Origin: a virus
Reading direction: 5' to 3' (one strand)
Virus record (IMG/VR): IMGVR_UViG_3300021960_000229
Span: 1 to 36,481 of that record
Length of the DNA: 36,481 nucleotides
Shown one piece after another: positions 24,679 through 36,481 of the stretch. The position numbers and the translations under genes were made by a program. The notes beneath the pieces were generated by a model. That model was not told where the DNA came from and made no database searches. It worked only from the letters and a program-made list of their open reading frames with translations. Each line of letters opens with the position of its first letter. Within the stretch, counting starts at the first letter, position 1.

Positions 24679-27600
24679 ATGTCAAAGATAACAAAAATAT
24701 CTAAAATAAAAGAACTAGCTCCGTTAGAAGCTAGCTTAGTTTTCGAGAAAGTGAGAAACGACGAAGGTGCTACAATACCTGTGGGTACACCTGTATATTC
24801 TAAGGGAGAAATTGGAGCTAGCGGAAGAATAAAGGTGGGTATTGCTGATGCCTCTGATTCTTCTAAAATGCCAGCTATTGGTATTACAAATTCAGAATTA
24901 TCCACTAGTGGAGATGGACAAGACGGTACAGTAACACTAATGGGTGTTTACAATACAAACATTTCAGGCTTTAGTGGTGTTAGTGAAAATGACATTGTAT
25001 ATGTAGCCGTAGGTGGTGGTCTTACTATTACAAAACCTACAGGCGTAAACTTAATACAAAACGTAGGTATAGTTTTAAAAACAAACGGCACTATCATACA
25101 AGGTTTAGCGGTTACTTGTATTGGTAGAACTAACGACGTACCTACGCCACTATACATTGACCACGCTAATCAACGTGTTGGTATTGGAGCTACTAGCCCT
25201 CAAGAATTATTGCATCTTGAATCAACCGAGCCGATAATAAGATTCGATGATACAAATTCAGGATTGCACTATTTAGTAGGTCAAGTTGGAGACTCATTTG
25301 TATTCGATACGAATAACTCGACTTACGCTAGCTATAGCTTTGATTCTGCCGTCGGCATAGGCACTACTACTCCAACTAGCAAGCTTCACGTTGTTGGTGA
25401 CGCTAGAATACAAGGTAATCTTACTGTCAACGGCACGTACACTCAAATAGATACAGACGTAAACACTACAGAGCAATGGCTTGTTACAAATGACGGTACA
25501 GGCCCTGCTGCTGTAATAAATCAACTTGGTAGTCAAGATATATTTGACGTTCAAGATGATGGTACTAGCGTGTTTTATATTGAAGATGGTGGTAATGTTG
25601 GTATAGGGACTACTAGTCCAAGTGAAATTCTTCACTTAGAGTCGACTGCTCCAAAAATAAAACTTAGCAATAGTCAAGCTCCCACAGGATATTTCACCAC
25701 GCTAGAGCAAAATTACTCGTACAATGGCCCTTCATTTGCCATAAACAGTGTGTCTGGAGCTACAACAAGAATATTACTTGGAAGATATGCTAACAACGTA
25801 TCAATTTTACCTACTGGAACTGGAAACGTTGGTATTGGAACGACAAATCCTAGTCAAAAATTAGACGTTGCTGGTAGTGTTGCAGCAGACACTTTTGTTA
25901 GTATACAAGGCATAGACACAGGTAATCCTAGCGCGGAAATTGACGAGCTAAGAGTTAGTGGTTATGGAGTTTTAGGTAGAAGAAACTCTGGAGTATATTT
26001 AAGTAATGAAGCTTCTGGTCCTTTGTTTTTTGGAACTGGAGGAAGGCACGCTGTATCTACTAGAATGACAATTGATTCTTCTGGCAACGTCGGTATTGGA
26101 ACAACGTCTCCAAGCTATAAGCTAGATGTTAATGGAGGCGGCGTAAGATTATCAAGTTCAAACTTTCATGTTTATTACGGCAGTTATGCTGGGTCTTGGG
26201 CTAGAGGTTATTTAATTCAAAATTCAGACGCGTCAGACCAATACGGAATTACTGGTGAATTTGACAACGACTCGTTTGAGGGGTTAAGAATAGGTAAGTA
26301 TGTCTACGACGACAAGGGTATATTTATAGAAAAAGACGGCAACGTCGGTATTGGAACGACAAGTCCTTCGGGTAAGCTACATATTAGTAGCGGAGGCTCT
26401 CCAAGTATAATTATACAAGATACCGACGGCACAGACCAATACGCAACTATAAACCATAACAACGGCTCTAATCAATATATAGCTAGAAATAACACTAGCA
26501 ACGGCCAGCATATTTGGTTTGGTCAAACAGGCCCTAGTAGTTTTAATGAGCGTATGCGTATTGATTCTTCAGGCAACGTCGGTATTGGAGATAGTACACC
26601 TACTAGAAAACTTACAGTCAATGGAGATATAGGACTTGCTAATAATGGTAAATTATTTTTATGGGATAGTCACGACGTAAATTACCTTCAATACTACAGG
26701 TGGGAGTTAAATTCTAGTTTGACAGCATACATAAATAACTCTGGCTCTGGAGGAGTTGCTTTAAAAACAGCTGGAAATACTAGGTTGCACATTGATAACT
26801 CAGGTAACGTTGGTATTGGTACGAGTAGTCCTAGCTCTACATTAAATATAAACGGAGGAACTGGAGGTTTATCTACAGGTTTAACTTTTGGTGATGGAGA
26901 TACTGGTATATGGGAGTCAGCTGACGACGTGTTAAGATTTAGTACTGTTTCAAATACAAGAGTTCTTATTGACGCCTCTGGCAACGTCGGGATTGGGACT
27001 ACATCGCCATCCTATCCACTTCACATTGCTACCGAAAGCCCAACACCTGCGGTTTATATTAAAAACAATGATAATAATGCCAATGGGTTAGTTGTTGCAG
27101 CTGGTAACGGTGGAGGTGGTACAAATACAATTTTAAGTTTAAGAGACAAAAATGACAACCCGAAATTTTCAGTTATTGAAAACGGCAACGTTGGTATCGG
27201 GATTACTAGTCCAAATAGATTATTACAAGTTGTTGGAAGCTCAGCAACCTCTGGAATTTCAACTGGAACATCTACATCGCCAAATAGTGCCGAGTTAACC
27301 GCAAACGGAACTAATTTTGCAGCATATTTATTAGGTCATAGTTTTTTAGCTTTTGGGACAAATCATTTAAACCTTGGTGCAACTGCATCTGAAAAAATGC
27401 GTATTGATTCTTCTGGTAACGTCGGGATTGGTACTACTAGTCCCGCGTACAAGCTAGATGTTGTAGGCGGAGGATTGAAAACTACAACAGCGACAGGTAA
27501 TAGAATTGCTTATTACGACGGTAGCGGCATCAACGCTTACGGCGGAACTAGCGGTTATGCTATTAGTAACTACACTGGAGACCTTAACATAAGACAACAC

Positions 27601-34789: not shown

Positions 34790-35053
34790 TTACTTCTTGG
34801 TTGATTTTTTATTAGCTCCATTACGAGCCCTGTTTTTTGACTTGTCCTCAGGGACTATAGTGCCGTCCTTAGCGTGAGACATATCCTTACCGCCCTTGCC
34901 GTAAACGCCTGAGTCTCGCCTAGCCTTAACCAAGGCTCCACGATAAGCTCTCCTTTCTGGAGTACTGTGATACTTAGTGTCGTATTCCAGCTTCTTCTTC
35001 TTAGCTTCAGGATTTTCGTTGTAATACTTCTGAGTCTTCTTTAGTCTAGCCAT
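34790..35053 (-). CDS. small basic conserved protein with YHSTPERR motif
   Basis: I start at the ATG 35053-35051 (MARLKKTQKYYNENPEAKKK), giving 87 residues. The frame extends further upstream, but MARLKKTQKYY is the start seen in similar proteins of marine viruses, and a TATATTTG box lies 4 nt before it. Conserved: KLEYDTKYHSTPERRAYRGA, then GVYGKGGKDMSHAKDGTIVP and a basic tail. Proteins with Y-x-x-x-P-E-A-[KR] and YHSTPERRxYR are known in several marine viruses without a defined role. The charge suggests binding to nucleic acid. It is the first gene of the leftward block, next to the long noncoding region. Confidence 0.65.
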   Translation of the reverse strand: MARLKKTQKYYNENPEAKKKKLEYDTKYHSTPERRAYRGALVKARRDSGVYGKGGKDMSHAKDGTIVPEDKSKNRARNGANKKSTKK

Positions 35054-35057
35054 GAGG

Positions 35058-35065
35058 CAAATATA
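35058..35065 (-). promoter_or_regulatory. -7 element (TATATTTG) 4 nt before a start codon
   Basis: TATATTTG on the minus strand, followed by CCTC and the ATG at 35053. As at 29578-29585 the spacing would give a leaderless mRNA. No TTG box is recognisable upstream. Confidence 0.45.
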
Positions 35066-35451
35066 TAAAAAAATGGTGAGATACGTTGGGGTTGGGGATA
35101 ATATAGATATACACGCATACACAATGGAACACCCAATCCATTATCCGAAATGGGGTGGGCCACTAGATAAGCTACTCTAGTAATCCAACCATCGTTTTTA
35201 CCTAGCTCACTAGATAGCCACTAGGTTGTAGCCTAGATACTTAGACCTAGTACCACTAGAGAAAGGACTACCGAACCTAACCTAGCCCACTAGATAGGAT
35301 AAAGGTAGGGTATAGGGTATTTTACTAGAGAAGAACGTCAGATTTTACTGGTATACCTTTGCAAACCGAACACTAGAGTAGCCACTAGAGTAGAATACCT
35401 CGGTTGCTGAACACTTTCGTTTTCTCTCTAGTATTACTAGATATGGGAGAA

Positions 35452-35482
35452 CCCCTCACCCCTTTACCCCTTATTTCACCCC
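35452..35482 (-). other. four-tract G-quadruplex motif
   Basis: The plus strand has four CCCC tracts at 35452-35455, 35459-35462, 35467-35470 and 35479-35482. The minus strand therefore reads G4-N8-G4-N4-G4-N3-G4, a canonical quadruplex pattern in an otherwise AT-rich genome. It lies inside the noncoding region between the leftward and rightward arms. Confidence 0.7.
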
Positions 35483-35583
35483 TCAAACCTTAACCTAGTT
35501 TTCCTAGATAGGGAAAGTCTTCAAACCTCTTACAGCGAAGAACAAGAAATTTTACTAGAGAAGAAGTGAAAGTTTTTTACTTT

Positions 35584-35619
35584 TTGTTAGGACTATGTAA
35601 ATTTTTTTCTGTATGTTTG
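35584..35619 (+). promoter_or_regulatory. promoter-like site P1 (TATGTTTG)
   Basis: TTG at 35584-35586 and TATGTTTG at 35612-35619, with a 25-nt spacer, a little longer than usual. It is followed by TTTGTACCAACAAATC (35616-35631), which is nearly identical to the sequence at P2. Direction is toward the gene at 36457. Confidence 0.5.
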
Positions 35620-35907
35620 TACCAACAAATCGAACGAGGTTTGGGTGTAATTTTGAAATTTTGACTGCCTCTCTCTAGAGAGCTATCTAGTCCACTAGAT
35701 AAGCCACTAGAGAACGCAACCTAGACCACTAGGGAACAACGATAGCTAATCTATCTAGTACAAGTACAGACTCACTAGAGTAAAACATGGAACGCTACTA
35801 GAGAAACACTAGAGACAAATTATCGCCCCTATCTAGTAAACCGAATTTTGAGTAGGTTGAAAGTTAGAAAGTTACTAGGTTACAAGGCAAGAAAGTGTGA
35901 AAATAAT

Positions 35908-35950
35908 TTGCACACCTCAAAAATTTGACGTACATTTGTACCATCAAATC
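35908..35950 (+). promoter_or_regulatory. promoter P2 (TTG-N20-TACATTTG) with 16-bp box
   Basis: TTG at 35908-35910, 20-nt spacer, TACATTTG at 35931-35938: a good Bacteroidota promoter. The overlapping box TTTGTACCATCAAATC at 35935-35950 matches the one at P1 in 15 of 16 positions. TTTG...CAAA within the box is an imperfect dyad, a possible operator. The start of transcription would be near 35944. Confidence 0.65.
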
Positions 35951-36445
35951 AAGTGAACTGCTTTACTGATTACAAGTTCACCTCTGGCACGACACAAATC
36001 AGCTAGCTACCGATAGGTAGGCTCACGAGATAATTTTTATCGGGAGATGACTAGGCTTGGCAATCGAGAGATTCAATGGGAGAATTACACCCACTAATCG
36101 AGACCTTACATCAACGAGTATTGGATTCACTAGAGTAGTCATTGTAGGCGGTACTAGGGTTGGAAACCTAGGCTAAATTCTGACAAGAGCAAAAATCCCT
36201 GTAATTTTTTATCGTTTTAAGGGGTGAGTGTAAACGATACCAACCTATCAAGGGTGGGGTACATTTGAGATGTACCATAATATGAAGGCTCATATTAACA
36301 CATGATTGAGCATAAATAAGACTATGTGTACTATGTCGGTGGTAGCAAGAAATTGTGCGACTAACTACCAGAAACGGACTATTGTTCAGACAACAACAAG
36401 GGTACGTTGGGGGCATTCGTTTGCCCCTAGTCCACTAACTTAAAT
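35944..36445 (+). ncRNA. candidate large structured RNA or structured leader
   Basis: Perfect inverted repeats follow one another: GTGAACT 35953/AGTTCAC 35975; AGCTACC 36005/GGTAGGCT 36016 (GATA loop, one bulge); GATAA 36029/TTATC 36037; ATGACTA 36047/TAGTCAT 36136, enclosing AATC-GAGA-GATT at 36062 and TGGG 36077/CCCA 36090; CTAGG 36154/CCTAG 36167; AAAAAT 36191/ATTTTT 36204; TATCGTTT 36210/AAACGATA 36232; GGTACAT 36258/ATGTACC 36270; TAATATGA 36278/TCATATTA 36290; ACACAT 36298/ATGTGT 36324; TGGTAG 36340/CTACCA 36365; GGACTA 36376/TAGTCC 36428, enclosing two hairpins. The GNRA loop and G-U extensions favour the plus strand, as do the promoters. The 5' end, extent and function are inferred. 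Not recognised as tRNA, tmRNA or a named class. Confidence 0.55.
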
Positions 36446-36456
36446 TGAATTGTATT

Positions 36457-36481
36457 ATGAATTACGATAGACTTGATGAAT
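36457..36481 (+). CDS. start of a rightward gene (cut by window edge)
   Basis: ATG at 36457 opens a frame MNYDRLDE that runs off the right edge. It is preceded by an A/T-rich context (TTGAATTGTATT) without Shine-Dalgarno, usual for this genome, and by the long structured region. Too short to identify. It is probably the first gene of the other arm of the genome. Confidence 0.5.

Follow-up and report, generated by a model that had tools for sequence, protein, structure and literature searches.

The late/early junction and its promoters

The window analysed here is a virus record of 36.5 kb (36,481 nucleotides), a podovirus fragment related to crAss-like phages. It contains a terminase (phrog_6681) and a portal protein (phrog_6547) as podovirus/crAss-like markers, and it further encodes a crAss muzzle domain (a weak match), an SU10-type major capsid protein and a Cpn10 protein. 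The relatives of the terminase are found among Flavobacterium and Cellulophaga phages and are plentiful in IMG/VR, where the closest one is 98% identical. The source is a crAss-like phage of marine flavobacteria. Near the right end of the window, about 1.4 kb is free of genes between the mostly leftward (late) block and the ATG at 36459. The last gene of the late block on the junction side is a phrog_6437 gene (34790–35053, minus strand, 87 aa), by whose relatives the same junction can be recognised in related phages. Its small, basic protein also exists in the cyanophages Syn5 (gp50), S-CBP2 and P60, which belong to very different phage groups, with 45–58% identity between the cyanophage proteins and that of the window. 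The first rightward (early) gene starts with MNYDRLDE and is cut by the contig end (36459–36481, plus strand); a gene starting with MNYNEV is present in the early block of one related phage (L190). The half-kilobase stretch studied here, originally predicted to be a candidate new large phage RNA, is the right-hand end of this expanded late/early junction.

Related phages were found by scanning IMG/VR for GAAAATAATTTGCA-N17-24-TANNTTTGT, which gave four more phages (L177, L179, L188 and L190) besides G010. Each of the five has something in common with the window: a phrog_6437-type gene, the junction or other proteins. The order of phrog_6437 gene, conserved block, P1, P2 and early gene is the same in the window and in the five relatives. 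The conserved part of the junction (35054–35200, by alignment and blastn) probably includes the leftward promoter. Within it, the block at 35057–35120 (GCAAATATATAAAAA ... TGAGATA ... GGGATAAT) lies directly before the leftward phrog_6437 gene and is kept in all five relatives; this block is probably the leftward late promoter itself. Two early promoters, P1 and P2, are both present in the window and in the relatives according to the alignments, except that P1 of L190 was identified by eye outside the alignment. P1 (35567–35619, plus strand; GTGAAAGTTTTTTAC ... TATGTTTG) is the counterpart of the relatives' first early promoter. P2 (35897–35938, plus strand) consists of GTGAAAATAATTTGCA, TTTG at 35907–35910, a 20-nt spacer and TACATTTG at 35931–35938, and together with the extended upstream GTGAAAATAATTTGCA it heads early genes in all five relatives.

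Promoters of Bacteroidota have a -33 TTTG box and a -7 TANNTTTG box about 20 nt apart (PMC6847099). P2 agrees with this sigma-A type consensus (PMC6847099, PMC9723704) in its TTTG, its 20-nt spacing and its TACATTTG box. The promoter that had been claimed at 35908–35938 is therefore genuine, being a Bacteroidota-type match that recurs in five related phages. Because the -7 box sits at -12 to -5 (PMC9723704), transcription from P2 is expected to start near 35943. P1 and P2 may be read by the host polymerase or by a virion polymerase, which for phage phi14:2 was shown to transcribe early genes (reviewed in PMC10136315). A third TACATTTG box was observed at 36260–36267, within a hairpin (36258–36276); it lacks a -33 box and is followed by a TACCAT-like sequence, as at P1 and P2, and is possibly a degenerate third promoter copy.

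Length, composition and folding of the leader

The untranslated leader between the expected P2 start and the first early gene is about 516 nt long (35943–36458, plus strand) and corresponds to the flagged stretch. In the relatives, P2 is followed by a leader of about 30 nt and then by small AT-rich early genes. The 5' leaders of F. psychrophilum have a mean length of 65 nt and a median of 24 nt (PMC9723704), so the leader of the window is unusually long. The junctions of the five relatives carry the same late-side gene, conserved block, P1 and P2 as the window; in contrast, they are shorter and AT-rich, have leaders some tens of nucleotides long, lack an array of CTAG motifs and carry genes immediately behind P1 and P2. 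The G+C content of the stretch is 40.7%, versus 34.3% for the remainder of the window, 26–28% for the early genes of the relatives and 26–30% for their early genes and junctions together, which agrees with the earlier observation that local G+C exceeds that of the nearby genes.

The stretch does not code for protein, as had also been noted before. Candidate reading frames within it scored -0.2 to -0.6 per codon for the codon usage of the phage, where 39-codon pieces of real genes score +0.18 and wrong frames -0.42. A 39-aa frame at 36324–36443 is preceded by A at both -3 and -6, yet its codon usage is that of a wrong frame (-0.42 versus +0.18 per codon in genes), and an 82-aa antisense frame at 36168–36416 was dismissed likewise. 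A decayed gene was also considered, and six-frame peptides compared with the relatives gave nothing convincing. No intrinsic terminator was found from P2 to the first gene, nor after the hairpins, and transcription should therefore continue into the early gene. With an upstream promoter, no coding sequence and no terminator before the gene, the stretch has the layout of a structured 5' leader of an early operon, and it is probably transcribed rightward from P2, to judge from these signals.

No DNA homologue of 35941–36458 was found in the phage collection or in two sets of 20 and 16 related records. Scans with short exact patterns only (promoter and hairpin patterns in IMG/VR, one pattern in GTDB genomes) gave no homologue of the stretch either, and no contig with the flagged region was reached when closer relatives were sought via the tail protein, a 237-aa protein and the GTDB terminase. 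Two contigs that are 97% identical to the window (L012 and L013) align up to position 25137 only. A 36-nt match to 35917–35952 in two other genomes (G014 and G017) lies within coding sequence beside their homologue of phrog_6437; relative to this gene its orientation is reversed, and it was taken as chance. In Rfam, which holds the GOLLD, ROOL and OLE families (PMC12286853), nothing in the window reached the gathering score and nothing overlapped 35940–36458 at E values up to 5. The weak scores obtained, such as a hairpin ribozyme at 20.4 bits where the gathering score is 65, lay outside the stretch and were regarded as chance. The stretch is thus neither GOLLD nor ROOL, as the original prediction had already supposed. 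It shares with these RNAs a large noncoding stretch in a phage. GOLLD and ROOL, however, are usually found near tRNA islands and have folds supported by covariation (PMC12286853), whereas the window contains no tRNA gene and the fold of the whole plus strand is not beyond chance.

The five stems named in the original prediction exist and are perfect: 35953/35975 (7 bp), 36047/36136 (7 bp), 36210/36232 (8 bp), 36258/36270 (7 bp) and 36278/36290 (8 bp). The mini-hairpin with a GAGA loop also exists (AATC-GAGA-GATT, about 36062–36073). When stems of at least 6 bp with loops of up to 40 nt were counted, the stretch had 10, versus 3.5 ± 1.9 in dinucleotide shuffles, of which 1 in 100 reached 10. 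In ordinary windows of this phage, also 502 bp long, there were 5.2 ± 2.7 such stems, and 10 of 140 (7%) had 10 or more. The stem count is therefore high but not singular.

The folding energy of the whole stretch gave z-scores of -1.3 and -1.5 on the plus strand and -2.7 and -2.6 on the minus strand (two runs each against shuffled sequences). The 5' half (35946–36200) was at chance on the plus strand (z +0.5). In contrast, the gene-proximal half (36201–36458) was significantly structured and contained an excess of hairpins, with z-scores of -2.6 on the plus strand and -3.8 on the minus strand, beyond nearly all shuffles; these scores are somewhat flattering, since the boundary at 36200 was picked after a sliding fold scan. 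The scan agrees in confining the signal to 36201–36458. The original prediction had described back-to-back helices tiling the whole half kilobase. Its hairpin-rich 3' half is real, while the tiling was over-read for the 5' half; folding was no lower than in shuffled sequences for the whole plus strand and the 5' half, and was lower for 36201–36458.

Individual helices were predicted with very different probabilities in the plus-strand ensemble. Three abutting hairpins at 36258–36276, 36278–36297 and 36298–36329 had pair probabilities of about 1.0, 0.8–0.9 and 0.7–0.8, and the hairpin GGGGCA-TTCGTT-TGCCCC at 36410–36427, about 30 nt before the start codon, reached about 1.0. The 7-bp hairpin just past the expected transcription start (35953–35981) had a probability of only 0.2 in the ensemble of the whole leader, and hairpins at 36210 (0.02), 36340 (0) and 36010 (0) were not formed. 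The helix 36047–36053/36136–36142, which had been thought to close a domain (36047–36142), had a probability of 0.34–0.38, and the domain folded at chance (z +0.3), so this part of the prediction was not borne out. The candidate large RNA as a whole fared no better: on the plus strand it folds about like shuffled sequence, with its 5' half at chance, folding is as good or better on the antisense strand, and searches of related phages and Rfam returned neither homologue nor family.

The CTAG motif array

An array of 35 CTAG-centred motifs, ACTAG(A/G)(G/T)(A/T), extends from 35163 to 36171. It is enriched about tenfold up to P2, thinner beyond, and absent from the relatives. CTAG occurs 30 times in 35054–35940, where 3.1 copies are expected, and 35 times in 35151–36180, around both P1 and P2. 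Other 900-bp stretches of the window have at most 11 copies, and the loci of the relatives have at most 9 per 900 bp around their junctions. Gaps of 8–9 bp between the motifs are over-represented (7 versus 1.8, P 0.0016). Part of the array (36003–36171) falls within the flagged stretch, in its first half; the stretch as a whole has 6 copies in 518 bp versus 1.9 expected. Because CTAG is its own complement, the copies can pair with each other, and this pairing accounts for part of the helices in the first half, for example 36047/36136. The feature of the locus that departs most from the normal is this CTAG array, ahead of the hairpins, and most of the array lies outside the flagged coordinates.

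Noncoding CTAG-rich stretches were also observed elsewhere: a regular tandem ACTAGAGATCCTAGAT array in another phage contig (L203, 8617–8918), and a degenerate CCACTAGAGA array near helicase and structural-type genes (L212, 2208–2530).

Possible functions of the control region

The stretch is probably part of the early control region of the phage rather than a new giant RNA. We tentatively favour, at somewhat short of an even chance, that it is the downstream part of an expanded divergent late/early control region whose long, partly structured 5' leader acts in cis. P2 would start a rightward transcript at about 35943, which would cross the roughly 516 untranslated nucleotides before reaching the first small early gene (36459). 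In its first half this leader would be unstructured and carry the tail of the CTAG array; in its second half it would form a row of short hairpins, three of them abutting and one lying about 30 nt upstream of the start codon. The likeliest role of such a leader would be in cis on the early mRNA, by protection or processing, by attenuation or antitermination, or by control of translation of the first gene. The Bacteroidota-type match of P2, the colinear junctions, the noncoding nature of the stretch and the continuous path from promoter to gene are consistent with a cis-acting leader, as are the z-score of 36201–36458 and the pair probabilities of 0.7–1.0 of its main hairpins. Against it, the antisense fold signal is as strong or stronger, DNA palindromes fit equally, the relatives manage without such a leader, and the searches of phage and relatives' records and the exact-pattern scans found no homologue showing the hairpins under selection.

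Known systems offer partial likenesses. The structured 5' cis-regulatory leaders of F. psychrophilum (Flavobacteriaceae, PMC9723704) likewise place a partly structured untranslated leader between a Bacteroidota-type promoter and a gene; they belong to host genes with mapped transcripts, whereas the leader here is a predicted one of about 516 nt and lies in a phage. In put-type RNA, two stem-loops in the nascent early RNA make RNA polymerase read through terminators, and HK022 putR lies about 270 nt downstream of its promoter (PMC9378689). The adjacent hairpins predicted in the present leader would similarly stand in an early phage transcript, at a comparable distance of some tens to hundreds of nucleotides past the promoter. 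The put RNA (PMC9378689), however, measures about 70 nt, has just two stem-loops and works with the host polymerase of a lambdoid phage, and no sequence relation was seen, so the likeness is one of position only.

In another reading, the locus works at the DNA level: the palindromes, together with the CTAG array surrounding P1 and P2, would be protein-binding sites, and the hairpins a by-product of dyad symmetry. The binder may be a phage or host protein, either a repressor or early-to-late switch or one that serves replication or partition. The shared flank of the 35 motifs, their preferred 8–9 bp gaps, their placement around both promoters and their tenfold excess up to P2 argue for such sites, as do stems that are perfect Watson-Crick palindromes folding at least equally on the antisense strand. 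We nevertheless consider it rather unlikely, because the motif is sparser in the flagged stretch and absent from the hairpins at 36258–36329, the relatives share these promoters but have no array, and no candidate binding protein was identified. It is decidedly unlikely that the stretch is a drifted or expanded spacer, functionless except for its promoters, in which noncoding sequence replaced the small early genes that the relatives have after P1 and P2. The missing small genes, the shuffle-like fold of the whole plus strand, the 7% of ordinary windows that equal its stem count, and the lack of a homologue in the 20 and 16 related records are what such a spacer would give. However, its G+C of 41% is far above the 26–30% of the relatives, the opposite of simple decay to AT, the six-frame comparison with the relatives recovered no protein remnant, and 36201–36458 folds beyond nearly all shuffles. 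Phage genomes also seldom keep a kilobase of idle sequence.

The original idea, a new class of structured phage RNA that stands free and acts in trans, appears very improbable. A promoter directly in front, noncoding sequence, G+C above that of the surrounding genes and a hairpin-rich 3' half would suit it; the end of the stretch has no terminator, the 5' half and the proposed domain are at chance, the related phages lack the stretch, and no homologue (in phage records, relatives' records or exact-motif scans) or Rfam relation was found. It is also quite improbable that 36201–36458 is a lineage-specific structured RNA element and that, combined with the CTAG-site array surrounding P1 and P2, it constitutes a novel type of early switch among crAss-like phages.

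The stretch is a real and somewhat unusual noncoding leader that was over-read as a half-kilobase RNA, and the status of a giant phage RNA does not stand on present evidence. The interest of the locus is modest and lies mainly in the CTAG array and the conserved promoter pair. Early-gene control in crAss-like phages is poorly known, and this locus, where a promoter pair shared by the relatives sits in an unusual, expanded control region with a hairpin-rich leader and an array of CTAG sites, is a testable case for how such control regions grow and act.
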